From an uncultured beta proteobacterium (GTDB lineage Bacteria; Pseudomonadota; Gammaproteobacteria; Burkholderiales; Rhodocyclaceae), in the NCBI GenBank assembly GCA_903933395.1, contig CAIZKA010000320.1, forward strand, positions 1-35,293: a stretch of DNA of 35,293 nt, written 5' to 3'. The position numbers were made by a program, and so were the translations under genes. Positions 567 through 31,904 of the stretch are shown here, piece after piece (the first letter of the stretch is position 1; every line of letters starts with the position of its first letter). The notes below the pieces were generated by a model. The model made no database searches. It was not told the origin of the DNA and saw only the letters and a list, made by a program, of their open reading frames with translations.

Positions 567-1370
567 TCAGACACGAGGGCTGTAATTGCCGACGTAGAAC
601 ACATTGGGCTTGGTGCCCTTTTCTTCCTGCAGGCGGAAGGACTTCTCCTTCTTCAGGATCTGCGAGATCTTGCTGTTCGGATCCTGCTGGTCGCCAAAAA
701 TCCGCGCCTGTGAAGGGCAGACCTCGACGCAGGCCGGCTGCAGGCCGTTCGTCACGCGGTGGTAGCAGAAGGTGCACTTCTCGATGACGTCGTCCGAACG
801 GATAGCCTTCGTTTCGCCGCCCTGCCAGTCGTTCAGCGCCGGAATCCGGGCGCCGGCCCTGGCCGACACTTCCGCGCCCGACGACGTGCAGCCCGGAATC
901 GCCGAAGTCTTGTCGGCCCAGAAAGGCTGTGGCTCATCTTGTGCGGGGTTGAGACTGATCACGCTGTAGGTCTCGCCGGTGAGGCTCCTGGAGTCGAGCT
1001 TCTCGTGGCTGTAGGGGCAGCCCTTCTTGGTCTGGCAATCGCCACAACCCACGCACAGCTCGGGATTGTGCAGGGTGATGCCTTCCGCCGTCTTGAACAG
1101 CGCCTTGTAGGGCTTGCCCTTGCCGGCCTTTTCCGGATTGCCCGGGCAGATCTTGATGCAAGGCGGCTCGTCGCAGTGGTTGCACAGCACCGGTATCACC
1201 ATGTGCCGGGTATTGGGAAACGTACCCTCGCTGTGCATCAGGAAGTCGGCCCAGTTGTAGCTTTGGCCCTCGGCACGGTTGCGCGTGTTGTTTTCGGTTT
1301 TGCAGGCAAAGGCGCAGGCACCGCAGCCCACGCAGCGCGACAGATCGATAACCATTCCTAGTTTCATCAT
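567..1370 (-). CDS. arrB: 4Fe-4S ferredoxin-type electron-transfer subunit of an arsenate-reductase-like molybdoenzyme (ArrB-like)
   Basis: Four Cys clusters (CVGCGACAFACKTENNT, CNHCDEPPCIKICP, CVGCGDCQTKKGCP, CTFCYHRVTNGLQPACVEVCP); KLGMVIDLxxCVGCGxC...KTENNT start typical of ArrB-type subunits; immediately downstream of the A subunit. Confidence 0.8.
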   Translation of the reverse strand: MMKLGMVIDLSRCVGCGACAFACKTENNTRNRAEGQSYNWADFLMHSEGTFPNTRHMVIPVLCNHCDEPPCIKICPGNPEKAGKGKPYKALFKTAEGITLHNPELCVGCGDCQTKKGCPYSHEKLDSRSLTGETYSVISLNPAQDEPQPFWADKTSAIPGCTSSGAEVSARAGARIPALNDWQGGETKAIRSDDVIEKCTFCYHRVTNGLQPACVEVCPSQARIFGDQQDPNSKISQILKKEKSFRLQEEKGTKPNVFYVGNYSPRV

Positions 1371-1390: not shown

Positions 1391-3940
1391 TCAGGCCTTG
1401 GTGATCCGCACGCCGGTGAAGCCACCGTTGCGCGCCGTGGCACCACTCAAGCGGTCGTAGTCATCGACCAGGATCTCGTTGTTGTTGCCGCCCAGCGGGA
1501 CCGCCTTGGCGTAGTCCTTGGAAGCGACGCGGCCGTAGGCCCAGTGCCCTTGCCCGTAGCACTTCGCCACGGTGCCGGGACGCACCCCCTCCCACAGCTT
1601 GAGGTCTACCGTGATGGAACCTGCCTGCGAAGTGATGGTCACCTTGTCGCCGGTCTGCAGACCCAGTTTTGCGCCGTCGGCCGGATTCATCTTGACCACG
1701 TCGCCCCAGGACACGTCGCCCGGATCGACCTTCTTGAACTCCTGGTACCAGGGCAGGTTCTGCGAGCGGCCTTCACGGTTCAGGCGCGACTTGTAGTCGA
1801 TGAAAGTGAAGGGGTACTCTTCCAGGCTGCCGTGACGCTTCGGTACCTCGTAGTGCGGCACGAAAGCCACCTCGCCCTTGGCGGTATAGCCGCTGACGGC
1901 GAGGATGTCGTCGACCGTGGTCGCGTGCTTGGTGGCATGGGCCTCGAGCTTCTTTTTCAGCGTCGCACTGAAGAACTCGAACTTCTTGGTCTCGGTTTTG
2001 AACTTGCCGCCCCAGCCCTTCTTGAGCGTGTAACGCGGGCCGCTGAACATGCCCTTGGCCTTGAACGCGGCCCAACCCTTGATTGGCGCGTCGCCCTTCT
2101 GCTCTTCCTTGCCATCCCAGATCGGCGCGCTGGTGAACTTGGCGGCGAACTCGCTGAACTCCAGCTCGTTGGTCGCCGACTTGCCGGTCTCGGGGTCCTT
2201 GATGGTGTCGTAATAGTCGGCCAGGTTGGGGAAGCCCTTCGCCTTCAGCTTCTGCGCTAGCAGCCACATCACTTCGGTCTCTTCCTGCTTGCCCTCGAAG
2301 ACGCGCTTGATCGGATTCTGCTGGATCGAGGCGTAACTGTAGCCGTTGCTGCCGTTGGTGACGATCGACCAGCCTTCTGACGAATTGAAGGTGGAGGGCA
2401 ACACGACGTCGGCGAACTGGGTCATTTCCGACGGGTTGGTGACCATGTGGGCGAAGAACGGCACCTTGGCCATCACTTGGTTCCAGCGGTCGGCACCGGT
2501 CGCCGAGTGGTTGAAGTTGCTCCACGAGGAGAGCACCACCTTGATCGCGCCCGGGTTCTTCAACAGGTAGTTGGGCACGTTGTTAATCGGCGAGGTCTGC
2601 AGCCCCGGCATATCTTTCTTGCCGCGCGCGTCTGTTCCGTGGTCCTTGTAGCCCTTCTTGGCCACCTCGTCGATGAACTTGTCGGTGCTGGGAAACTTGT
2701 TCAGCTTGGGACCGCTGGCGCCTTCCAGGACAACAACATCGATCGAACCGAGCAGGCCGTTCAGCGCATACACGGCCATCGAGGCATAGGTGCCCCGCGG
2801 CCACATGTTGGCACCGGGCCCCATCCAGACGGCGGTATAGGGTGCGGCCTTGGCCATGGCGCGAGCCACGCGCACGATCTGCTCGGCGGGGATGCCGGAT
2901 TCCTTGGCGCCGAAGGCCGGGGTGCGGTCCTTCAGTTCCAGGTTCCACCACTTGACCAGGCCCGAGGTTTCCTTCTCGACGAAGGCATCTTCGGCGACGG
3001 CACTGCCGGCGACGAAGAGGTTCTTGCCGTCCTTGAAGTCGCCGACGAATTCCTTGTTCCACGTGCCTTCGGTGAGGATCACGTGGGCAATGGCGCCGGC
3101 CAGCGCGCCGTCGGTGCCCGGCAGCACGGGTAGCCACTCGTGCGACTTGGCGCCGGCGTTGGACAGGCGCGGATCGACCGTGATCACGGTGCCACGGGCA
3201 ACGATCTCATGGAAACGGTGGATGGTGTTCGGTACCTGGCGATTGGAGGCCAATGGGTCGCAGCCCCAGACTACCAGGCAGTTGGTCTTTTCCAGATCGT
3301 AGTCACGATAACCGTAGAAGCCTTGCGTCAGGCCCGGGCCCATCTTTTCGGCCTCGGCGCAAAGTGCGCTGTGCGAGTAATAGTTGCCGGTGCCGAAGAC
3401 CTTCGGCAGGGTGCCGTAGAGCAGGTCGGTGGAGGTCGGCGAATAGCGGCCGCGCATGTACATCAGCTTTTCCGGTTCGCCGGCGGCACGCAGTTCAAGC
3501 ATTTTGTCAGCGACGATGTTCATTGCTTCGTCCCAGGAGATCGGCACGAACTTCGGATCGATGCCGCGTCCCTTGAGCGGATTGGTGCGCTTCAACGGCA
3601 CCTTGACGCGGTCCGGATCGTAGGTCTGCTGCGGGATCAGGTGACCGCGCGGGCAGACGTAACCGTGGTTGCTCTTGGAAATCTCGTTGCCGCGCACGCG
3701 GGTGGCGCGGCCCCCCGACACGTACAACTGGATCGCGCACCACTGGGTGCAGCCCTGGCAGGTGCTGGCGATCCATTCACCCTTGGCCGGCGTGCTGGGC
3801 CTGGCCTTGCGCGGGATCAGCGCATTCTTGAACGGCATGGGCTTGTGCTTGGGCTTATCGGCCGCCAAAGCGCTGCCGCCGAGCATCCAGGCCGCGGACG
3901 CGGCGGATGCCATGATGAATTCACGTCTGGTCAATTTCAT
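1391..3940 (-). CDS. arrA: Tat-exported molybdopterin oxidoreductase catalytic subunit, arsenate reductase (ArrA)-like; start corrected from ORF-track 4021 to 3940
   Basis: Tat signal [35 protein letters not shown]...CPRGH Fe-S motif; RGRY segment; SALCAEAEKMGPG...GYRDYDLEKTNCLVVWGCDPLASNRQ resembling ArrA; C-terminal molydop-binding region. ArxA or another related clade cannot be excluded without phylogeny. Confidence 0.75.
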   Translation of the reverse strand: MKLTRREFIMASAASAAWMLGGSALAADKPKHKPMPFKNALIPRKARPSTPAKGEWIASTCQGCTQWCAIQLYVSGGRATRVRGNEISKSNHGYVCPRGHLIPQQTYDPDRVKVPLKRTNPLKGRGIDPKFVPISWDEAMNIVADKMLELRAAGEPEKLMYMRGRYSPTSTDLLYGTLPKVFGTGNYYSHSALCAEAEKMGPGLTQGFYGYRDYDLEKTNCLVVWGCDPLASNRQVPNTIHRFHEIVARGTVITVDPRLSNAGAKSHEWLPVLPGTDGALAGAIAHVILTEGTWNKEFVGDFKDGKNLFVAGSAVAEDAFVEKETSGLVKWWNLELKDRTPAFGAKESGIPAEQIVRVARAMAKAAPYTAVWMGPGANMWPRGTYASMAVYALNGLLGSIDVVVLEGASGPKLNKFPSTDKFIDEVAKKGYKDHGTDARGKKDMPGLQTSPINNVPNYLLKNPGAIKVVLSSWSNFNHSATGADRWNQVMAKVPFFAHMVTNPSEMTQFADVVLPSTFNSSEGWSIVTNGSNGYSYASIQQNPIKRVFEGKQEETEVMWLLAQKLKAKGFPNLADYYDTIKDPETGKSATNELEFSEFAAKFTSAPIWDGKEEQKGDAPIKGWAAFKAKGMFSGPRYTLKKGWGGKFKTETKKFEFFSATLKKKLEAHATKHATTVDDILAVSGYTAKGEVAFVPHYEVPKRHGSLEEYPFTFIDYKSRLNREGRSQNLPWYQEFKKVDPGDVSWGDVVKMNPADGAKLGLQTGDKVTITSQAGSITVDLKLWEGVRPGTVAKCYGQGHWAYGRVASKDYAKAVPLGGNNNEILVDDYDRLSGATARNGGFTGVRITKA

Positions 3941-4065
3941 AATTGCCTCCTGATAAAGAACCCGATCAATAGCCAAACACTGCAAACATTGAAATTTGCC
4001 CGTCCATTGCCTGTTCCCCAAGCCCGTTGGCGATCTGCGGGATTGCTGTCGAAGCCCGCTGACAA

Positions 4066-4081
4066 GTTACCTTCCGGTAAC
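4066..4081. promoter_or_regulatory. dyad GTTACC-TTCC-GGTAAC (site 1), upstream of the A-subunit gene
   Basis: Perfect 6-bp inverted repeat, 4-bp spacer; shares the extended context CAAGTTACCnnnnGGTAACCT with site 3. Confidence 0.7.
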
Positions 4082-4143
4082 CTGGAATCAGTCTTGTCGC
4101 GTCTCCCGTCATAGCAAGCGGCCGGCCCGGACAGACCGGTAAA

Positions 4144-4165
4144 AGTCGGCGCCGGCGACACGGCG
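4144..4165 (+). repeat. copy A of dispersed 22-bp motif AGTCGGCGC-N7-ACGGCG
   Basis: AGTCGGCGCCGGCGACACGGCG (intergenic). Confidence 0.55.
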
Positions 4166-4375
4166 ACCCGCAAAACAAGGCCTTCAGCGCGGTCGGCGCC
4201 GGAAGGCCTGGGTTGCGGGGATGGGTTCGCGGTTTCACGATGTCTGCTTGGTGTTCTTGCTCGCCAGACTTCTTGCGAGAAACATGCCATCGAAGAAAAA
4301 CAGCATGCTTTCAGGGCATTGACCTGCGGGCCCGCCAAAAAGCAGCAGGCAATGAACAAGAATCGCGTTAATATG

Positions 4376-4391
4376 GTTACCAGACCGTAAC
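4376..4391. promoter_or_regulatory. dyad GTTACC-AGAC-CGTAAC (site 2), just upstream of the binding-protein start
   Basis: One mismatch to the sites 1/3 pattern; also readable as the perfect inverted repeat GGTTAC-N6-GTAACC at 4375-4392. Confidence 0.6.
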
Positions 4392-4404
4392 CGACGGAGG
4401 CCTC

Positions 4405-5310
4405 ATGCATCAGGACACGTCAGTCAAGTTACCGGGTGGTAACCTACGCCGTAACCGGCGTCGTTGGCTTATCGACAGCGCTTGCCTCGCTGCCGCCGGA
4501 CTGATCGGCCTGTCTCGCAAGTCGCAAGCAAGCAGCGGAAAGATACGGGTGGGCATGACCCCGGCATTTCTGCACGACCAGCACAGCCTGCTTGGCGAAT
4601 GGCGGGATTTCATGGCGGCCTCGCTGCAGCGGCCGGTGGAATTCGTGCAGCGCGACAGCTACCGCGAAACCATGGACTTGCTGCGGCTCGAAAAGCTGGA
4701 GTTCGCCTGGATCTGCGACTACCCCTACCTGCATCTCAAGAAGGAAGTCCGACTGCTGGCGGTGCCGCTCTACCAGGGGCAACCGCTTTACCGCTCCTAC
4801 CTGATCGTGCGCAAGGACAACGCCCAAGTTAAATCGATGACGGATCTCGCCGGCAGCGTCTTCGCCTATGCCGACCCCTACTCGAACACCGGCTACCTTG
4901 CACCGCGCTACGAGATCCGCCAGATCGGGCGCGATCCGGGAAGTTTCTTTCGCAAAACCTTCTTTACCTGGTCGCATCGCAAGGTGGTCGAGGCGGTGGC
5001 CAGCGGCCTTGCCCGCGGCGGCGCGGTGGACAGCTACATCTGGGACACCCTGGCCCACGTCGAACCGGCGCTGACAGAGCGAACCCGCATCGTGTCGCGT
5101 TCCCCGGAATACGGCTTTCCACCCTTCGTCAGCCACCACTCTGTATCCGCCGCCGACTTTCAACTGATGCAGCAGCATCTGCTCGGCATGGCAAAAACCG
5201 ATGCCGGTCGCCGCCTGCTCGAACACCTGCATCTTGACGGCTTCACCACCGGCAGCCCGGCCCTGTATGAAGGTGTTGCAAAGATGATGCGCGCCTTCGG
5301 CGAAGCCTGA
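4405..5310 (+). CDS. PhnD-like periplasmic substrate-binding protein, ArrX/ArxX/AioX-type sensory component
   Basis: PhnD fold signatures (KIRVGMTPAFLHDQ..., YRSYLIVRKDNAQVKSMTDLAGSVFAYADPYSNTGYLAPRYEI); followed by HK and RR genes; divergent from an arr-like operon. Confidence 0.8.
   Translation: MHQDTSVKLPGGNLRRNRRRWLIDSACLAAAGLIGLSRKSQASSGKIRVGMTPAFLHDQHSLLGEWRDFMAASLQRPVEFVQRDSYRETMDLLRLEKLEFAWICDYPYLHLKKEVRLLAVPLYQGQPLYRSYLIVRKDNAQVKSMTDLAGSVFAYADPYSNTGYLAPRYEIRQIGRDPGSFFRKTFFTWSHRKVVEAVASGLARGGAVDSYIWDTLAHVEPALTERTRIVSRSPEYGFPPFVSHHSVSAADFQLMQQHLLGMAKTDAGRRLLEHLHLDGFTTGSPALYEGVAKMMRAFGEA
4428..4443. promoter_or_regulatory. dyad GTTACC-GGGT-GGTAAC (site 3), inside the 5' end of the binding-protein gene
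   Basis: Perfect 6-bp inverted repeat, 4-bp spacer. Confidence 0.6.
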
Positions 5311-5318
5311 GAGTTCTG

Positions 5319-6800
5319 ATGCGCTGGCTGTTCAACCTCTCCTTCCGCCACAAGATCCCCTTGTGGACCTCCTTCCTGATCAGCTTTTCGATCTTCATCG
5401 TCGGCGCCGCGCTGATGACCCGCGCCTATGAGGACATGAAAAGCGCGGTGGTGATCAGTGCCGACAATCTCGGCCACACGCTGGCCAACACGGTGGCGCC
5501 GACGCTGTTGCACGACGACGTCTGGCGCGCTTTCGAGATCGTGCGCTCGCCGCTGCGCGCCGAGATCGCGAAAACGCCGGTGCAAGTCGACGCGGTGGTG
5601 GTCCTCACGCGCGAGCACAAGGTCTTTGTCTCCAGCGATCCCGATGCGCTGCCGATGCTGAGCGAGGCGACGGCCCTCGGGCCGGACTGGGAACGCCTGG
5701 GTGAATACCTGCGCGCACCGGCCGGCATCAAGTGGCCGCTGGTTCTGGAGCCCGCGGGGTCCAGTTACCTTTATGTCGCTCTGCCGATCACCGACAAGGA
5801 TGCCCAACTCGGGCACCTGGTCCTGCGCTATGCCAAATCGGTGTTTCATCCCTGGTTCATCGACACCCTCTGGCAGGGCCTCGCGCTGGGTCTGCTGGTG
5901 CTGGCGGTGCTGATCCCGATCAACTGGTACTGGGGCGGGCGCATGGCCAAGCCGCTGGTCGACCTGGCACAGCGCATGGGCATGATGATGGAGAAGCCGC
6001 CCGAGCCTCTCCCCCCCGATCTATACCCCTACCACGACGAACTGGGCCAGCTGTTCCAGGCCTACGATCGCATGGTGCTGGCGCTGCGCGACAAGGCCGC
6101 GCTGGAAAATGAAATGGTCAAGTCCGAACGCCTGGCCGCCATCGGCCAGCTCACCGCCGGCATCGCCCACGAAATCAACAACCCGCTGGCCGGGTTGATC
6201 ACGGTCGTCGACACGCTCAAGCTGCGTCGCGATCTCGATCCGCGCGTGTTGCGCAACCTGGAGCTGATCGATCGCGGCCTGATGCAGATTCGCGACACCG
6301 TCGCCGCACTGCTGGTGCAGACCAAAGTGCAGGCGCGGCCGCTGAACCCGCACGACCTCGAAGACATCCGCACCCTGATCCAGCCTCAGGTCGGCAAGCG
6401 CCGTATCCGGCTCGACTGGTCGGCAACCATGCCCGCCGAACTGCCGGCGCCCGCCAGCCTGGTGCGTCAGATCCTGATCAACCTGTTGCTCAATGCGGTG
6501 CAGGCCGCGGCCGAAGACGGCCACGTCAGTCTGTGGCTGGGCCGCAGGGAAGATGTTGAATCCTGTCTGACCATCATCGTGCGCAATGACGGCGAGCTGC
6601 TCGGCGACGAGCAACTTTCCCACCTGTTCGAGCCCTTCACCTCAACCCGCGCCGGCGGCCACGGCCTCGGCCTATGGGTGACTTACCAGATCGTGACCCA
6701 GCTTGAAGGTCGCATTGCCGCCCGCAATATCGATGGCGAAGTCGAATTCGTGGTCAACCTGCCTCTTGGAGATAGCCCATGCAGCACCGCATCGCCCTGA
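5319..6800 (+). CDS. membrane-bound sensor histidine kinase
   Basis: N-terminal TM segment, periplasmic loop, second TM, HisKA motif AAIGQLTAGIAHEINNPLAGL, HATPase region; overlaps the next ORF by 22 nt. Confidence 0.88.
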   Translation: MRWLFNLSFRHKIPLWTSFLISFSIFIVGAALMTRAYEDMKSAVVISADNLGHTLANTVAPTLLHDDVWRAFEIVRSPLRAEIAKTPVQVDAVVVLTREHKVFVSSDPDALPMLSEATALGPDWERLGEYLRAPAGIKWPLVLEPAGSSYLYVALPITDKDAQLGHLVLRYAKSVFHPWFIDTLWQGLALGLLVLAVLIPINWYWGGRMAKPLVDLAQRMGMMMEKPPEPLPPDLYPYHDELGQLFQAYDRMVLALRDKAALENEMVKSERLAAIGQLTAGIAHEINNPLAGLITVVDTLKLRRDLDPRVLRNLELIDRGLMQIRDTVAALLVQTKVQARPLNPHDLEDIRTLIQPQVGKRRIRLDWSATMPAELPAPASLVRQILINLLLNAVQAAAEDGHVSLWLGRREDVESCLTIIVRNDGELLGDEQLSHLFEPFTSTRAGGHGLGLWVTYQIVTQLEGRIAARNIDGEVEFVVNLPLGDSPCSTASP

Positions 6801-8098
6801 TCGAAGACGACCCCATCATCGGCGAGGCGCTCTCCGATCGACTCGAATTCGAGGGCTTTGCCTGCGACCGTTACCGCGACGGAAAACTGGCCCGGCGCGG
6901 CCTCGGCCAGCGCCGCTACAGCGTGGTGGTGAGTGACATCAACCTGCCCGACATCAGCGGCGAACAATTGTTCTGCGACCTGCTCGCGGATAACCAGGCG
7001 CTGCCGCCATTCATCTTCATTACCGGCTATGGCGCCATCGACCAGGCGGTGCGGCTGCTCAAGCTCGGCGCCCACGACTATGTCACCAAACCCTTCAATG
7101 TCGGCGAACTGATCGCCAAGATCCGCGGCCTGTGCGAGCGCCAGCAACCCGCCGCGAACAGCGATGCGCAACTGGGTATTTCCACCGCCATGCGCCATAT
7201 TGAGGGTTTGCTGCCGCGCCTGGCGGCAAGCCGCAGCGCGGTACTGATCTCCGGCGAGTCCGGCGCCGGCAAGGAACAGGTGGCGCGCGCGTTGCACGCG
7301 GCCGGCGACGCGAAAGGCAAGACGCCTTTCGTCGCGGTCAATTGCGGGGCGATTCCGGAGAATCTGATCGAGTCGGAACTATTCGGCCATGACAAGGGAG
7401 CCTTCACCGGCGCCGAGCGCGAGCGGCGCGGCGTGTTCGAACAGGCCGACGGCGGCACCCTGTTCCTTGACGAGATCGGCGAAATGCCGCCCTCGATGCA
7501 GGTCAAGCTCCTGCGCGCGATCCAGGACCGGGCGGTGGTCCGCGTCGGCGGCGCCACACAGCTCAAGGTGAATATCCGGCTGGTCTGCGCCACGCATCAC
7601 GACCTCAAGGCGATGGTCGAACAGGGCGGCTTTCGCGAGGACCTGTATTACCGGATCCACGTCATCCACCTCGACGTACCGCCCCTGCGCGAGCGCCAGG
7701 AAGACATCCTCTGGCTGGCGGCGCGCTTCCTCGACGAAAGAGCAGCCAGAGGGGAGGCCCGCCGCACCCTGACGGCCGACGCCGAGCGCGCCCTGACCCG
7801 CTATCCCTGGCCGGGCAACGTGCGCGAGTTGCAGCATTGCCTGGAGCGCGCCTGCGTGCTCTCGCTAAGTCCGGTGTTGAATGTCGAAAGCCTGTTCGCT
7901 GCCGACGGTCCGCCGGCAACGGCAGAAGATGGGCTGCGCCAACCGCTCAGCGACCACCTGCAGGATTGCGAGCGCACCTACATCCGGCGAGCGCTGAACG
8001 AGTGCGACGGCCGCATCGCCGACACCGCCGCCCTGCTCGGCATCAGCCGCAAGAACCTCTGGGAAAAGATGCGCAAACTCGAGATGGCTGAAGGCTGA
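6779..8098 (+). CDS. NtrC-family sigma-54-dependent response regulator
   Basis: Receiver domain (IALIEDDPIIGEAL...DINLPD...YVTKPF), AAA+ Walker A GESGAGKE, GAFTGA loop, Fis-type HTH DTAALLGISRKNLWEKMRK. Confidence 0.93.
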   Translation: MQHRIALIEDDPIIGEALSDRLEFEGFACDRYRDGKLARRGLGQRRYSVVVSDINLPDISGEQLFCDLLADNQALPPFIFITGYGAIDQAVRLLKLGAHDYVTKPFNVGELIAKIRGLCERQQPAANSDAQLGISTAMRHIEGLLPRLAASRSAVLISGESGAGKEQVARALHAAGDAKGKTPFVAVNCGAIPENLIESELFGHDKGAFTGAERERRGVFEQADGGTLFLDEIGEMPPSMQVKLLRAIQDRAVVRVGGATQLKVNIRLVCATHHDLKAMVEQGGFREDLYYRIHVIHLDVPPLRERQEDILWLAARFLDERAARGEARRTLTADAERALTRYPWPGNVRELQHCLERACVLSLSPVLNVESLFAADGPPATAEDGLRQPLSDHLQDCERTYIRRALNECDGRIADTAALLGISRKNLWEKMRKLEMAEG

Positions 8099-8975: not shown

Positions 8976-8997
8976 AGTCGGCGCCGGGGCTACGGCG
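8976..8997 (+). repeat. copy B of dispersed 22-bp motif
   Basis: AGTCGGCGCCGGGGCTACGGCG, overlapping the pepN stop codon. Confidence 0.55.
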
Positions 8998-20060: not shown

Positions 20061-21110
20061 CTACAGAACTGCGTTGAAAACGTAACCGACGATCAGGATG
20101 CCGAGCGCGACGACGCCGGCGAAGGTGGCGATCAGCGGCAGCTTGAGCACTTTGCGCAGGATGATCATTTCCGGCAGCGACAGCGCGATGACGCTCATCA
20201 TGAAGGCCAGCACGGTGCCCAGCGCGGCGCCCTTGCCGATCAGGGCCTCGACCACCGGCAGGATGCCCGCGGCATTGCTGTACATCGGCACGCCGATCAG
20301 CACGGCCGCAGGCAGCGACCACCACGGCGCGTCCTTGCCCATGATCGAGGCCATGAAATCCTGCGGCACATAGCCGTGGATGACGGCGCCCACGCCGATA
20401 CCGGCGAGGACCCAGGGCCAGACCTTGCCGACGATATCCCTGACGTGGGCGACACCGGCATCGATGCGTCCGGCCCAGTGCATTTCTTCGCCGACGTAGT
20501 CGGCTGACTGGCTGGCCTGCATGGCGCGCACCCAGTCTTCGAGATGGCGCTCCATGCCGAGCTTGCCGATCACCAGTCCCGCCGTAATCGCCACCGTCAG
20601 GCCCAGCGCCAGGTAGAGCCCGGCGACCTTCCAGCCGAACAGGCCGAACAGCAGCGCCAGCGCGACTTCATTGACCATCGGCGCCGAGATCAGGAAGGAG
20701 AAGGTGACGCCCAGCGGCACACCGGCAGAAAGAAAGCCGATGAACAGCGGTACCGCGGAGCAGGAGCAGAAGGGCGTGATGACGCCGAGGCTCGCCGCCA
20801 TCACGTTGCCGACGCCCAGGCGCTTGCCGGAGAGAAGCGCCCGCGTGCGTTCCGGCGAGACGAAGGTATGCACCACGCCCATCAGGAAGACGATGCCGGT
20901 GAGCAGCAGCAAGACCTTGGGCGTGTCGTAGAAAAAGAAATGCACGGCTTCGCCCAGGTGGGTCTGGCGGGTCAGGCCCAGCAGCGCGATGGCGGCATCG
21001 GCAAAAGGCACCAGACTGGCGTAAGCGGCTATCCACGCGATGAAGCTAACACCCAGCCAGCCCCAGGGCGGGCGGCGCGGGCTATGGCTGGTATCGGTCA
21101 AGGCAGTCAT
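20061..21110 (-). CDS. ArsP/SO_0444-type permease (DUF318)
   Basis: TPFCSCSAVPLFIGFLSAGVPLGVTFSFLISAPMVNEVAL and GVPMYSNAAGILPVVEALIGKGAALGTVLAFMMSVIALSLPEMIILRKVLK motifs. Confidence 0.88.
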   Translation of the reverse strand: MTALTDTSHSPRRPPWGWLGVSFIAWIAAYASLVPFADAAIALLGLTRQTHLGEAVHFFFYDTPKVLLLLTGIVFLMGVVHTFVSPERTRALLSGKRLGVGNVMAASLGVITPFCSCSAVPLFIGFLSAGVPLGVTFSFLISAPMVNEVALALLFGLFGWKVAGLYLALGLTVAITAGLVIGKLGMERHLEDWVRAMQASQSADYVGEEMHWAGRIDAGVAHVRDIVGKVWPWVLAGIGVGAVIHGYVPQDFMASIMGKDAPWWSLPAAVLIGVPMYSNAAGILPVVEALIGKGAALGTVLAFMMSVIALSLPEMIILRKVLKLPLIATFAGVVALGILIVGYVFNAVL

Positions 21111-21125
21111 GGTGTTTTGTCCCGA

Positions 21126-21464
21126 TCAGGCGGCGCAGCGTTGCGGCCGTCCCGCCATGACCTTCAGCCGCTTGAGATCCGCTTTGAATCCGGCGGCAGC
21201 AGCATCCGGCAAGGTTTTCAGCAGCGCCGCAGCCCATGCGGGCAGGGACGGAGACAGGCGGTAGAACATCCACGTCCCCTCGCGACGCGGGATCACCACG
21301 CCGGCATCCTTCAGTACGCCCAGGTGGCGCGAAATCTTGGGCTGGATGTCGTCCAGCGCGGCAGTGAGTTCACAAACGCAGAGTTCGCCCTGATCTACCA
21401 GCAAGGCAAGAATGCGGCGGCGCGTGGCATCGGCGACGGCATCGAAGACGAGTTGGGTATCCAT
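21126..21464 (-). CDS. arsR: ArsR-family metalloregulator
   Basis: ELCVCELTAAL metal-binding motif in a winged-HTH (IQPKISRHLGVLKDAGVV); first gene of the ars operon. Confidence 0.93.
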   Translation of the reverse strand: MDTQLVFDAVADATRRRILALLVDQGELCVCELTAALDDIQPKISRHLGVLKDAGVVIPRREGTWMFYRLSPSLPAWAAALLKTLPDAAAAGFKADLKRLKVMAGRPQRCAA

Positions 21465-22334: not shown

Positions 22335-23690
22335 ATGTCACTGCACGATCCCTTCGATCCGAACGCCGCGATGAGCGGTTGCAGCTGCGGCCGACACGCC
22401 TCGCAAACGCAGCACGACATCGCCGCCGGGGCGGGCGTCATCGATGCACTGAACAGTCGCGTGATTCAAACGACGGTGATGCGCGCCCTGTTCCCGAAGG
22501 ACGCCGAGCGACGCAAGTTCCTCTCCGCCGTCGGCGCATCCACGGCCTGGGCGGCGATTTCCTCGCTGATCCCGTTCGGCACGCTGGAAGCCATGGCGCA
22601 GGAAAAGGGCAGCCTGGAGAAGAAGGACCTCAAGATCGGCTTCATCCCCATCACCTGCGCCTCGCCGCTGGTGATGGCGGACCCGCTCGGCTTCTACAAG
22701 AAGCAGGGGCTCAACGTCACGGTGATCAAGACCGCCGGCTGGGCGCTGATCCGCGACAAGGTGATAAACAAGGAATACGACGCTTCGCACATGCTGGCAC
22801 CGATGCCCATCGCCATGTCCATGGGCGTCGGTTCCAACCCGATGCCGATCAACGTCGCCACCATCCAGAACATCAACGGCCAGGCCATCACGCTGCACGT
22901 CAAGCACAAGGACAAGCGCGATCCGAAGATGTGGAAGGGCTTCAAGTTCGCCGTCCCCTTCGAGTATTCGATGCACAACTTCCTGCTGCGCTACTACGTC
23001 GCGGAGCACGGCCTCGACCCCGACAAGGACATCCAGATCCGCGTGGTGCCGCCGCCCGAAATGGTGGCCAACCTGCGTGCCGGCAACCTCGACGGCTACC
23101 TCGGGCCCGACCCGTTCAACCAGCGCGCCGTGTTTGACGAAGTCGGCTTCATCCACATCCTGTCGAAGGAAATCTGGGACGGGCACCCCTGCTGCTCGTT
23201 CGGTGCGCCGACGGCCTTCGTCAAGGAGAACCCCAACACCTTTGCCGCCCTGTACCGCGCCGTGCTGACCGCCGCGGCGATGGCGCGCGATCCGAAAAAC
23301 CGCCCGATCATGGCCGAGGTGCTGGCGCCGGCCAACTATCTCAATCAGCCCAAGGCGGTGCTGGAGCAGGTCCTTACCGGCAAATTCGCCGACGGCCTGG
23401 GCAACGTCAGGACGGTTGCGGACCGCGTGGATTTCGACCCCTTCCCCTGGTACTCGATGGCGGTATGGATACTGACCCAGATGAAGCGCTGGGGCTACAT
23501 CAAGGGCGACGTACGCTACAAGGACATCGCCGAGCAGGTCTATCTGGTCACCGACGCCCGCAAGCACATGGCCGAAGTGGGCCTCGCGGCACCCAAGGAG
23601 AACTTCCGCAAGATCTTCGTGATGGGCAAGGAATTCGACCCGGCCAAACCGGAGCCCTACCTCAACAGCTTCGCCATGAAGCGGACCTGA
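22335..23690 (+). CDS. CmpA/NrtA-family ABC transporter substrate-binding protein, likely cyanate (or nitrate)
   Basis: LKIGFIPITCASPLVMADPLGFYKKQGLNVTVIKTAGWALIRDKV; internal Tat-like RRKFLSAVGAST; operon with cyanase. Confidence 0.85.
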   Translation: MSLHDPFDPNAAMSGCSCGRHASQTQHDIAAGAGVIDALNSRVIQTTVMRALFPKDAERRKFLSAVGASTAWAAISSLIPFGTLEAMAQEKGSLEKKDLKIGFIPITCASPLVMADPLGFYKKQGLNVTVIKTAGWALIRDKVINKEYDASHMLAPMPIAMSMGVGSNPMPINVATIQNINGQAITLHVKHKDKRDPKMWKGFKFAVPFEYSMHNFLLRYYVAEHGLDPDKDIQIRVVPPPEMVANLRAGNLDGYLGPDPFNQRAVFDEVGFIHILSKEIWDGHPCCSFGAPTAFVKENPNTFAALYRAVLTAAAMARDPKNRPIMAEVLAPANYLNQPKAVLEQVLTGKFADGLGNVRTVADRVDFDPFPWYSMAVWILTQMKRWGYIKGDVRYKDIAEQVYLVTDARKHMAEVGLAAPKENFRKIFVMGKEFDPAKPEPYLNSFAMKRT

Positions 23691-23702
23691 GGGGACGGCA
23701 TC

Positions 23703-24542
23703 GTGAAGTCCGAATCCATCAAGGCGGCGCTGCTGTCCGTCATCATCTTCCTGACCTTCATCGGCGCCTGGTACATCGCCACCCTGCCGCGCGACAACGG
23801 CCCGGTGTCGACGGCAGATGCCGAGTACGCCGCCCTGATGGGCAAGGGCGCGGAAAAGTCCGGGGGCTTTCCGGCGCCGGGCAAGGTGGGCCAAGCCTTC
23901 GTCGAACACCTGGCCGACCCTTTCTACGACAAGGGCCCCAATGACAAGGGAATCGGCATCCAGCTTGCCCATTCCCTGGGCCGGGTCGGACTGGGCTTCC
24001 TGTTGGCGACGCTGGTGGCGATCCCCGTCGGCTTTGCCATCGGCATGTCCCCCCTGCTGTTCAAGGCCTTCAATCCCTTCATCCAGGTGCTGAAGCCCAT
24101 CTCGCCCCTGGCCTGGATGCCGCTGGCGCTCTACAGCCTCAAGGACTCGTCGGTGTCCGGCATCTTCGTCATCTTCATCTGCTCGGTGTGGCCGATGCTG
24201 ATCAACACGGCTTTCGGCGTGGCTTCGGTGCGCCGCGACTGGATCAACGTGGCGCGAACCCTGGAAGTCAGGCCGCTGCGCAAGGCCTTCCTGGTGATCC
24301 TGCCCGCGGCGGCGCCGACCATACTGACCGGCATGCGCATCTCCATGGGAATCGCCTGGCTGGTGATCGTTGCCGCCGAGATGCTGGTCGGCGGCACGGG
24401 CATCGGCTACTTCGTGTGGAACGAGTGGAACAACCTCGCCCTGCCCAATGTCATCTTCGCCGTGGTCATGATCGGCGTGGTCGGCATGCTGCTGGATCTC
24501 GCCTTCGGTTCGCTGCAGAAGCTGGTCACCTACCGCGAGTGA
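23703..24542 (+). CDS. ABC transporter permease (NrtB/CmpB-like)
   Basis: Six TMs; EAA-type loop ARTLEVRPLRKAFLVILPAAAPTILTGMRISMGIAW. Confidence 0.88.
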   Translation: MKSESIKAALLSVIIFLTFIGAWYIATLPRDNGPVSTADAEYAALMGKGAEKSGGFPAPGKVGQAFVEHLADPFYDKGPNDKGIGIQLAHSLGRVGLGFLLATLVAIPVGFAIGMSPLLFKAFNPFIQVLKPISPLAWMPLALYSLKDSSVSGIFVIFICSVWPMLINTAFGVASVRRDWINVARTLEVRPLRKAFLVILPAAAPTILTGMRISMGIAWLVIVAAEMLVGGTGIGYFVWNEWNNLALPNVIFAVVMIGVVGMLLDLAFGSLQKLVTYRE

Positions 24543-24546
24543 TGCC

Positions 24547-25485
24547 ATGACTCCACACTTCCTCACTGTCGAAGCGCTGAAAAAAGTCTATCCGGCAAGC
24601 GGCGAGAAGAGCAATCCGCCGGTATTCGAGGACATCCATTTCCACATCGAAAAAGGCGAGTTCATCTGCATCGTCGGCCACTCCGGCTGCGGCAAGACCA
24701 CCATCCTGAACGTCCTCGCCGGACTCGAGGAAGCGAGCGCCGGCAACGTCATCATGGACGGCCGCGAAGTGAAGGGGCCCAGCCTGGACCGCGGCGTGGT
24801 GTTTCAGGGCCATGCGCTGATGCCATGGATGACGGTGCTGGCGAACGTGGCGTTTGCCGTGAGCTCGAAATGGCCGGACTGGCCGAAGGACAAGGTGAGG
24901 GAGCACTGCACCCGGTTCCTGACTATGGTCGGCCTCGGCCACGCCCTCGACAAGAAGCCGGCCGAGTTGTCGGGCGGCATGAAACAGCGTGTCGGCATTG
25001 CCCGGGCCTTCGCCATCCAGCCCAAGATGCTGCTGCTCGACGAGCCCTTCGGCGCCCTCGATGCGCTGACGCGCGGCACCATCCAGGACGAGTTGCTGAA
25101 GATCGTGCAGGCCACGCACCAGACCGTGTTCATGATCACGCACGATGTCGACGAGGCCATCCTGCTGGCCGACAAGATCCTGCTGATGAGCAACGGCCCC
25201 GGGGCCAGGATCGCCGAGATCGTCGAAGTGACCATGGCGCGCAGCCGTACGCGCGCCGGCATCCACCACGACCCGCAGTACTACAAGATCCGCAACCACC
25301 TGGTGGATTTCCTCGTCAATCGCTCGGAGACCTATTCCGGCGCCGAAGCGGAGATGTTCCACGATTCGAAGAATCCGCCGCTGGTGCAACCCGGCCTGGA
25401 AGGCGAGCGCGCGCCGGTGTTCACCCTGACCACGGAAAAGGGGATCTCGCAAGCACTGCACGCCAAACACGCCATCAATCAGTGA
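24547..25485 (+). CDS. ABC transporter ATP-binding protein (NrtD/CmpD-like)
   Basis: GHSGCGKTTILN, LSGGMKQRVGIARAFAIQPKMLLLDEPFGALD. Confidence 0.92.
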   Translation: MTPHFLTVEALKKVYPASGEKSNPPVFEDIHFHIEKGEFICIVGHSGCGKTTILNVLAGLEEASAGNVIMDGREVKGPSLDRGVVFQGHALMPWMTVLANVAFAVSSKWPDWPKDKVREHCTRFLTMVGLGHALDKKPAELSGGMKQRVGIARAFAIQPKMLLLDEPFGALDALTRGTIQDELLKIVQATHQTVFMITHDVDEAILLADKILLMSNGPGARIAEIVEVTMARSRTRAGIHHDPQYYKIRNHLVDFLVNRSETYSGAEAEMFHDSKNPPLVQPGLEGERAPVFTLTTEKGISQALHAKHAINQ

Positions 25486-25495
25486 AAGGAAGAAC

Positions 25496-25939
25496 ATGAA
25501 TCGCAACGACGTCACCGAATTGATCATCGCCGCCAAGATCTCCAAGGGCCTCAAATGGGAAGATGTGGCAAAGAAGATCGGGCTTTCCAAGGAGTGGGTC
25601 ACCGCCGGCTGCCTCGGCCAGATGACCTTCGACAAAAAGCAGGCGACCACCCTCGGCAAGATCTTCGGCCTGCCGCCGGAGGCCGTGGCCCTGCTGCAGG
25701 TGGTGCCCTACAAGGGCTCACTGCCGACCGCGGTGCCGACCGATCCGCTGATCTACCGCTTCTACGAACTCATCAGCGTCTATGGCACGACCTTCAAGGA
25801 ACTGATCCACGAGGAATTCGGCGACGGCATCATGAGCGCCATCGATTTCAAGATGGACCTGAAGCGCGAACCCAACCCCAATGGCGACCGCGTCAACATC
25901 GTCATGTCGGGCAAGTTCCTGCCCTACAAGACCTACTGA
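25496..25939 (+). CDS. cynS: cyanate hydratase (cyanase)
   Basis: LIIAAKISKGLKWEDVAKKIGLSKEWVTAGCLGQMTF ... DPLIYRFYELISVYGTTFKELIHEEFGDGIMSAIDFKMDL ... GKFLPYKTY. Confidence 0.97.
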   Translation: MNRNDVTELIIAAKISKGLKWEDVAKKIGLSKEWVTAGCLGQMTFDKKQATTLGKIFGLPPEAVALLQVVPYKGSLPTAVPTDPLIYRFYELISVYGTTFKELIHEEFGDGIMSAIDFKMDLKREPNPNGDRVNIVMSGKFLPYKTY

Positions 25940-29354: not shown

Positions 29355-31904
29355 TCAGGCCTTGACCACCTTGGCGGCGCACTTCTTGAAGTCCGTTTCT
29401 TTCGAAATCGGGCAAGTGGCATCCAGGGTGAGCTTGTTGACCAGACGATGCTCGTCGAAGAAGGGCACGAATATCAAACCCTCCGGCATCTTGTTGCGAC
29501 CCTTGGTATCGACCCGCAACTCGATCTCGCCACGCCGCGTGGACACCTTGACCACATCGTTGCGCTTGATGCCGCGCTTCTCGGCATCTTTCGGGTGCAT
29601 CCACACCACCGCATCCGGGAAGGACTTGTACAGCTCCGGCACGCGGCGCGTCATCGAACCGGAGTGCCAGTGCTCCAGCACGCGGCCGGTGCACAACCAC
29701 AGGTCGAAATCCTTGTCCGGCATCTCGGCGGCAGGCTGGTAGGGAAGCGCAAAAATTTTGGCCTTGCCGTCGGGATAGCCATAGAACTTCACGCCCTCGC
29801 CTTTCTTCACATACGAGTCGTAGCCTTCGCGGAAACGCCACAGGGTTTCCTTGCCATCGACCACCGGCCAGCGCATGCCGCGTACCTTGTGATAGGTATC
29901 GAAGGGCGCCAGATCGTGGGCGTGGCCGCGGCCGAATCCGGCATATTCCTCGAACAGTCCCTTCTGCACGTAGAAGCCGAACGCCTCGGACTCGTCATTG
30001 GTATAGCCGGCCCAAGCGTGGGCGTTCACCTTCGCGGCTTCTTCCTTCGGAAACTTGTTGACCTGACCGTTGGCGTACAGCACGTCGTACAGGGTCTTGC
30101 CCGCGAGTTCCGGCGCCTTGGCCAGGAGATCGGCCGGCCAGACTTCCTCGACCTTGAAGCGCTTGGAGAATTCCATGTACTGCCAGAGGTCGGAGCGGGA
30201 TTCGCCCGGCGCCTTGACCTGCTGGCGCCACATCTGGCCGCGTCGCTCGGCGTTGCCGAACATGCCTTCCTTTTCCATCCACATCGCGCAGGGCAGGATC
30301 AGGTCGGCCGACATCGCGGAGACAGTCGGATAGACATCGGACACCACCACGAAAGCTTTCGGATTTCGCCAGCCGGGATAGATCTCGCCGTTGATGTTCG
30401 GCCCGGCCTGCATGTTGTTGGTGGTGGAGGTCCAGTAAAAGCCGATCTTGCCGTCCTTCAACATGCGGCTTTGCGCGACTGCGTGATAACCCATCTGCGC
30501 GGAAAGCGCCCCCTCGGGCAGCTTCCAGAGTTTCTCTGTCATCTCCCGATGCTTCGGGTTGAAGATCACCATGTCGGCGGGCAGGCGATGGGCAAAGGTA
30601 CCGACTTCGCGCGCCGTGCCACAGGCGGAGGGCTGGCCGGTCAGCGAGAAGGGGCTGTTGCCCGGCTCGGAGATCTTTCCCGTCAGCAGGTGCACGTTGT
30701 AGATCATGTTATTGACCCAGGTGCCGCGTGTGTGCTGGTTGAAACCCATGGTCCAGTAGGACGTCACTTTCACCTTCGGGTCGGCGTAGGCTTTGGCCAG
30801 GGCTTCAAGCCTGTCCTTGGGTACGCCGGAAATCTCGTGAGCCTTGTCCAGCGTGTATTCGGAAACAAACTTGGCAAAGTCCTCGAAGCTGATCGGCGTG
30901 TGTTTGTTCGGGTCGCCCTTGGGCTTGCCGTCGGCACCCGGATAGCCGTTGTTGTTGGCTACTTGCTCCAGCGGATGGTTGGGTCGCAGGCCGTAACCGA
31001 TGTCGGTAACGCCCTGGAAGAAGCCGACGTTCTTCTTGACGAACTCCTGATTGACGGCCTTGTTCTGGATGATGTAGTTGCAGATGTAATTGAGGATCGC
31101 GAGATCCGACTGCGGCTTGAAGATCAGCTCGTTGTCGGCCAGTTCGCAGGAGCGATGCGTGAAGGTCGACAGCACATGGATCTTGACGTGGTTGGCGGTA
31201 AGGCGACGATTGGTGATGCGCGACCAGAGGATCGGGTGCATCTCGGCCATGTTCGAGCCCCACAGCGCGAATACGTCGGCGTGCTCGGCGTCGTCATAGC
31301 AGCCCATCGGCTCGTCGATGCCGAAGGTGCGCATGAAACCAGCTACGGCGGAAGCCATGCAGTGGCGCGCGTTGGGATCGATACTGTTGGAACGGAAACC
31401 GGCCTTCATCAGCTTGACGGCGGCATAGCCTTCCCACACGGTCCATTGGCCGGAACCGAACATGGCAACACCGTTTGCGCCTTGGGTAGGCTCTTTCAGT
31501 GTCGCCTTGACCTTCTCGGCCATGATGTCGAAGGCGGCATCCCAGGAGATCTGGGCGAATTCGCCGTTCTTGTCGAACTTGCCGTCCTTCATGCGCAACA
31601 GCGGCTTGGTCAGCCGGTCCTTGCCGTACTGAATCTTCGACAGGAAGTAACCCTTGACGCAGTTGAGGCCCTTGTTCACCGGCGCATCGGGGTCACCCTG
31701 AGTGGCCACCACGCGACCGTCCTTGACGCCGACCAACACGCCGCAACCGGTGCCGCAGTAGCGGCAGACGCCCTTGTCCCAGCGCACGCCATCCTGGCTT
31801 TGCGGCGGTACCGCCAGCGCCACGCCGGGAATGCTCATGCCAGCCGTGGCAGCGGCGGCGGCGATGGCATTGGTCTTGATGAATTCACGTCGCGTCAATT
31901 TCAT
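29355..31904 (-). CDS. napA: NapA periplasmic nitrate reductase catalytic subunit
   Basis: Tat signal [79 protein letters not shown]. Confidence 0.97.

Follow-up and report, generated by a model that had tools for sequence, protein, structure and literature searches.

Results and Discussion

Genes and Dyads at the Locus

The window analyzed here, meaning the whole stretch of DNA examined, is a 35,293-nucleotide contig from an uncultured member of the Rhodocyclaceae. It carries genes for a molybdopterin oxidoreductase (A), an iron–sulfur subunit (B), and a chaperone (D), divergent from a cassette that encodes a periplasmic sensor (X), a histidine kinase (S), and a response regulator (R). Three GTTACC-N4-GGTAAC dyads lie in and beside the region between A and X (Table 1).

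Table 1. Genes, candidate operator dyads, and predicted promoter elements of the A/X divergent locus, in window coordinates
Feature	Description	Position	Strand	Basis or remark
D	TorD/NarJ-like chaperone, cut by contig end	1..469	-	PF02613
B	4Fe-4S subunit (ArrB-like)	567..1370	-	Profile matches
A	ArrA-family molybdopterin oxidoreductase, divergent target gene	1391..3940	-	ArrA model and 6cz7 comparison
Site 1	Candidate operator dyad GTTACC-TTCC-GGTAAC, GTTACCTTCCGGTAAC	4066..4081	.	About +190 of predicted A-operon transcript
Sigma54 promoter	Predicted -24/-12 promoter of the A-B-D operon, TGGCATGTTTCTCGCA	4274..4289	-	Transcription start about 4263
-10 hexamer	Putative TAATAT of the X-S-R promoter	4369..4374	+	Abuts site 2; inferred from alignment
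Site 2	Candidate operator dyad GTTACC-AGAC-CGTAAC, GTTACCAGACCGTAAC	4376..4391	.	One mismatch; about -120 of predicted A-operon start
X	AioX-family periplasmic oxyanion sensor	4405..5310	+	AioX 6esv, 191.6 bits
Site 3	Candidate operator dyad GTTACC-GGGT-GGTAAC, GTTACCGGGTGGTAAC	4428..4443	.	About -172 of predicted A-operon start
S	Sensor histidine kinase	5319..6800	+	Profile matches
R	NtrC-type response regulator, proposed ligand of the dyads	6779..8098	+	Domain architecture

A scored 952 bits against the ArrA model, below the NCBIfam ArrA equivalog cut-off of 1600, and 835 bits against the solved ArrA of 6cz7, in an alignment that contains the RGRY motif (a rule for ArrA taken from PMC6549141) and the ArrA active-site residues. 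Judged by these scores and residues, A is an ArrA-like relative and is not classed as ArrA itself; arsenate reduction, arsenite oxidation, and turnover of another oxyanion are all candidates for its activity. No arxB2 gene lies beside A, and no NrfD-type subunit gene occurs before the contig end. X is closer to AioX than to ArrX (129.9 bits). Compared with the AioX/ArxX pocket residues listed in PMC5908839, its AWICDYPY aligns with AWICGYPF, the other pocket positions are kept with one change of Ser to Thr, and it retains the arsenic-pocket cysteine that PhnD is without. The pairing looks mismatched, with an ArrA-like enzyme bearing RGRY beside an arsenite-binding AioX/ArxX-type sensor rather than ArrX. 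R combines a receiver domain, a sigma54-activating AAA+ domain with GAFTGA, and a Fis-type helix-turn-helix domain with SRKNLWEKM, and rpoN was found in the same genome.

Elsewhere in the window, an ArsR-type regulator (21126-21464) stands beside a SaoE-like permease (20061-21464 for the two), a nitrate/sulfonate-type ABC transporter occurs with cyanase (22335-25939), and NapA is encoded at 29355-31904. Together, these genes form an arsenic and nitrogen oxyanion neighborhood.

All three dyads had been picked out in a first-pass annotation of the letters alone, and each is present at the position and with the sequence it gave, site 2 with its one mismatch. Allowing up to two mismatches, we found no further GTTACC-N4-GGTAAC dyad in the window, in agreement with that annotation. 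Its placement of the sites was also accurate: about 126 bp (against its 125) separate site 1 from the A ATG (3940), and sites 2 and 3 flank the X start at -29/+23, 52 bp apart. Site 2 ends 13 bp from the X ATG (4405), and site 3 falls within X codons 8-13, where it encodes LPGGN.

The three dyads are far more than chance would give. The shuffled window is expected to hold 0.24 of them, and 0 of 100 shuffles reached three. Pattern-based scans of the 3.37-Mb draft genome (83% complete), of the kind the first-pass annotation had called for, returned sites 1-3 plus one site with one mismatch on another contig; even with base 6 of the half-site left free, sites 1-3 were the only exact matches. A scoring matrix trained on 52 sites from relatives, with the window excluded, gave 23.4 bits for site 1, 21.7 for site 2, and 21.5 for site 3, while the next best score in the 35 kb was 6.5.

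Recurrence of the Dyads with the XSR Cassette

A search for X in 399 genomes of the order gave 48 with a homologue at a cut-off of E 1e-20, and we retrieved 49 loci, mostly 10-15 kb each. Around the X start, dyad density was 34 times that elsewhere under a strict rule; by matrix, it was 2.33/kb at XSR loci against 0.039/kb elsewhere, a 59-fold difference. In 37 genomes with XSR, every exact site lay at the XSR locus except one that preceded a second molybdoenzyme, and six of 35 genomes without an X match contained a single stray site. We also retrieved 80 named homologues of A (63-89% identity) and counted those with enough upstream DNA. At least two upstream dyads were present for 22 of 24 homologues with XSR beside them versus 1 of 44 without X (Fisher 1.5e-14, overstated because the loci are related). 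The dyads accompany XSR beside ArxA-like, AioA, TtrA-like, and PhsA-like enzymes and MtrA/B/C-like conduits; at several XSR loci (e.g. L038, L065, L078, and L080), no clear dyads were seen.

When the orthologous loci were aligned, the non-coding blocks that stood out as conserved were sites 1, 2, and 3, the sigma54 element, the ribosome-binding site, and a single dispersed-repeat copy, with the surrounding non-coding sequence diverged. At the level of sequence, the dyads are conserved in orthologous intergenic regions and are not a frequent random occurrence elsewhere, as the first-pass annotation had expected of real operators. In L087, the promoter region is tandemly duplicated, giving six dyads in two sets. 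The set proximal to A keeps all three with X 5.8 kb away, so that site 3 is intact there without X coding sequence.

This duplicate bears directly on the idea that the dyads are chance palindromes or a by-product of coding constraint. Such an origin could be suspected from the position of site 3 in coding sequence and from the relatives in which a dyad inside arxB2 likewise encodes LPxGN. Yet the L087 copy keeps site 3 with no X adjacent, the shuffles never reached three sites, and the dyads persist amid diverged non-coding sequence, and we give this explanation almost no credence.

Several loci carry dyads remote from X. A pair at -3902/-3859 from X in L070 precedes the aioBA operon, about 4 kb away; a pair at -7552/-7510 in L035 lies before a second molybdoenzyme; and L061 has a pair at +5206/+5239. 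With members 33-43 bp apart, these pairs are likely further targets of the same R. In L046, L048, L072, and L083, XSR is divergent from MtrC/MtrA/MtrB-like extracellular electron conduits, and two divergent sigma54 elements surround a central dyad in addition to the usual pair at X. It is possible that an oxyanion sensor controls the electron conduit in these four loci.

Promoter Geometry

We searched for sigma54 promoters with a matrix written from general consensus knowledge, and both promoter elements in Table 1 are consensus calls. Only one good -24/-12 element emerged, the predicted sigma54 element, and it has site 1 on one side and sites 2 and 3 on the other. It is conserved among orthologues as TGGCAyGnTTnTCGCr, and in the window its -12 half reads TCGCA instead of TTGCA. 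Another candidate near A (about 3997-4012) was dropped, being without the -12 TT and failing the scan. Minus-strand sigma54 elements facing the enzyme operon occur at 30 of 50 X-centered loci against 1.1 expected, and dyads lie mostly 80-180 bp upstream of such elements.

Relative to the predicted start, the dyads stand at -172, -120, and +190 in the window. Most of the ten orthologous copies agree with these positions to within a few bases; site 1 departs from them in L090 (+180) and L089 (+226). In most copies, about 310 bp separate sites 1 and 2, while the interval between site 1 and the A start ranges from 64 to 313. The predicted A leader is long, at about 320 nt. Because the sigma54 element sits between them, sites 2 and 3 would be the upstream activating sites of A, with site 1 downstream. 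By this geometry, sites 2 and 3 have the position of an enhancer for the A promoter, upstream and at enhancer distance, and site 1 does not.

The first-pass annotation had divided the roles differently, with site 1 as the enhancer of A and sites 2 and 3 serving only autoregulation of X-S-R. Rhodoferax-type relatives do show that arrangement: their third dyad lies 64-184 bp upstream (-64 to -184) of a strong sigma54 element near A, and the pair keeps to -68/-27 relative to X. With about 800 bp between the pair and the A promoter in L108, the third dyad has to be enough in that locus. In the window and its ten orthologous copies, however, the conserved sigma54 element is on the other side of site 1, and no conserved promoter-like element is present in the stretch leading from site 1 to the A ATG, which in most of them measures only about 50-130 bp. 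An enhancer role for site 1 is therefore not upheld in the window, and we regard the division as a whole as unlikely.

The autoregulation part of that proposal fared better. A TAnnAT hexamer lies beside site 2 in the window and in 8 of 10 orthologous copies, and one of the two exceptions is the L087 copy without X. The pair of sites also keeps its place relative to the X start, which in Rhodoferax-type loci holds however far away A is (the X-to-A gap ranges from 319 to 864 bp). This fixed distance and the abutting -10-like hexamer argue for autoregulation of X-S-R as a likely second role of sites 2 and 3, next to their enhancer position for A.

Site 1 and the A Leader

No single role for site 1 fits all relatives. 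It is downstream of the start in the window and in L095, as well as in L036 and L037, where it lies inside arxB2, but it is upstream in the Rhodoferax-type loci. Site 1 is most likely an auxiliary operator, which may help R to oligomerize or loop, or may damp transcription. The three dyads could seat three dimers, the count in an AAA+ hexamer. We also considered whether the A leader contains a relic of arxB2 and rejected this, as tblastn matched only the dyad-encoded residues.

With site 1 probably transcribed and able to fold into a 6-bp hairpin, the dyads might instead work in RNA, as attenuators or terminators. This would leave sites 2 and 3 unaccounted for, outside the A transcript, and no T-run follows the dyads. 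Conservation extends to the letters themselves rather than to pairing alone, the arms vary with the R helix, and the pairs are phased by helical turns (see below), all of which makes an RNA function highly improbable.

The leader contains a further conserved block of 23 bp between the promoter and site 1. We rejected it as an RNA or peptide element: single-sequence folds had no common structure, and the block is one copy of a dispersed genomic repeat of about RAAAGTCGGCGCYGGCGNCACGGCG. In the window, this motif occurs at 4142-4164 and at 8976, 11993, 13920, 14155, 15572, 19794, 28486, and 33597, making 9 copies in 35 kb against 0.02 expected. Across the genome, allowing up to 3 mismatches gives 208+198 matches, which fall in both coding and non-coding DNA. 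The motif is also present in sister Rhodocyclales loci, but a check of eight more distant loci found none. In this it is reminiscent of signals for DNA uptake or chromosome organization.

R as the Predicted Ligand

Two features connect the dyads to R itself. Where the R recognition-helix residue is N (SRKN), 111 of 138 half-sites have C at base 6; where that residue is T, S, or A, only 13 of 40 do, and G is commonest. The covariation has P = 2.7e-8 by half-site and 7e-4 per locus, values that are optimistic because the loci are related. Alphaproteobacterial AioR (SRTTLW) loci have GTTCGG-type pairs, with no match to the matrix trained on relatives. In addition, paired dyads are spaced by about 22, 32, 42, or 52 bp, phased at 10-10.5 bp, that is, by whole helical turns (Rayleigh about 1e-7, or about 2e-3 on distinct spacings, both overstated by the relatedness of the loci).

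AioR operators have the form GTT-N10-AAC, with a DNase I footprint on GTTCGGATTTCCGAAC in Agrobacterium tumefaciens GW4 (PMC5335332). The window sites share both the 16-bp dyad and the GTT...AAC ends. The systems are also alike in having a cognate AioXSR-family cassette, an NtrC/AtoC-type regulator, a sigma54 target promoter, and sites paired at whole helical turns (33 bp in NT-26, pSinA, and pAtCFBP6624). They differ in the inner half-site (ACC in the window, CGG in AioR operators) and in the helix (SRKNLW, SRTTLW), and the window half-site GTTACC does not match the known GTTCGG, making it a variant rather than the same site. The window also differs in its target, an ArrA-like operon instead of aioBA, and in its three sites, one of them downstream of the promoter, with the pair straddling the X start. 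Our search of the open-licence literature on GTTAC with AioR found nothing relevant.

Symmetric 16-bp dyads would suit many dimeric regulators, and an ArsR-type gene lies in the window, so another protein that co-occurs with arsenic genes (an ArsR-type repressor, an anaerobic regulator, or a global factor) might be the ligand. The distribution of the dyads argues against this: they track XSR even beside an Mtr-type conduit or a TtrA-like or PhsA-like enzyme, and A homologues without XSR are without dyads. Base 6 covaries with the recognition helix of R, and the dyad frame agrees with the footprinted AioR site. We therefore judge a different ligand to be very unlikely. The dyads are almost certainly operators of the NtrC-type R of the adjacent AioXSR-like cassette, as read from these comparisons, and the original assignment to an oxyanion-sensing regulon gains support from the XSR linkage, the conservation, and the rarity elsewhere.

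Comparison with ArxR and NtrC Circuits

In NtrC circuits such as glnA/glnL, a sigma54 promoter is served by paired dimer sites located about 100-170 bp upstream, which can also shut an overlapping sigma70 promoter. The pair in the window is likewise at enhancer distance, with a likely second role in limiting the X-S-R operon. It differs in its half-site, in serving a divergent rather than same-direction operon, and in the conserved third site past the start.

For Alkalilimnicola ehrlichii MLHE-1, an ArxR site, gtaacaattcaagc, has been proposed by homology and is asymmetric (PMC5908839); arxXSR control was described in 2019 as not demonstrated (PMC6683785, PMC6549141). The MLHE-1 arx locus resembles the window in its divergent XSR/molybdoenzyme arrangement with an RpoN promoter. 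Unlike that homology-based proposal, the dyad described here rests on a comparison of many loci. By its sites and layout, the window system is real and conserved, and it represents a variant of the AioR/NtrC kind that is unusual in its fixed arrangement of three sites.

Proposed Mechanism

We infer binding, activation, repression, and the role of site 1 from what can be seen in the sequence, namely the sites, their conservation and spacing, the XSR linkage, the covariation with R, and the promoter geometry. In the proposed sequence of events, X would bind an arsenic oxyanion in the periplasm, and S would then phosphorylate R. Dimers of R would occupy sites 2 and 3, five helical turns apart on one face of the DNA, and would loop from 120 and 172 bp upstream to the sigma54 promoter of the A operon and open it. 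On the same two sites, R would cover the X start region and limit its own operon. Site 1, which lies about 190 bp into the A transcript with site 2 about 310 bp away, would be a third conserved site for R. This account, with R dimers on the dyads, sites 2 and 3 as enhancer and autoregulatory sites, and site 1 as an auxiliary operator, is probably correct as a whole and explains the data best.

Implications

Control of anaerobic arsenic respiration genes by ArxR/ArrR has so far been assumed, and its operator only guessed. With the site code, promoter, and geometry described here, the circuit can be tested directly using short probes and point mutants. The code also allows genomes to be scanned for additional targets, among them Mtr-type conduits and still unassigned molybdoenzymes that are accompanied by XSR cassettes, and the covariation of helix and base offers a rule to predict the operators of uncharacterized XSR systems. 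More tentatively, since we hold it somewhat less probable than its converse, one operator code (GTTACC-N4-GGTAAC, tuned by one helix residue) may run a general betaproteobacterial periplasmic-sensor cassette on many respiratory complexes, including Arr/Arx-like, Aio, TtrA-like, PhsA-like, and Mtr-type systems. In the lineage of the window, this code would use a fixed three-dyad geometry, in which the +190 site and the enhancer pair act together from opposite sides of the promoter.
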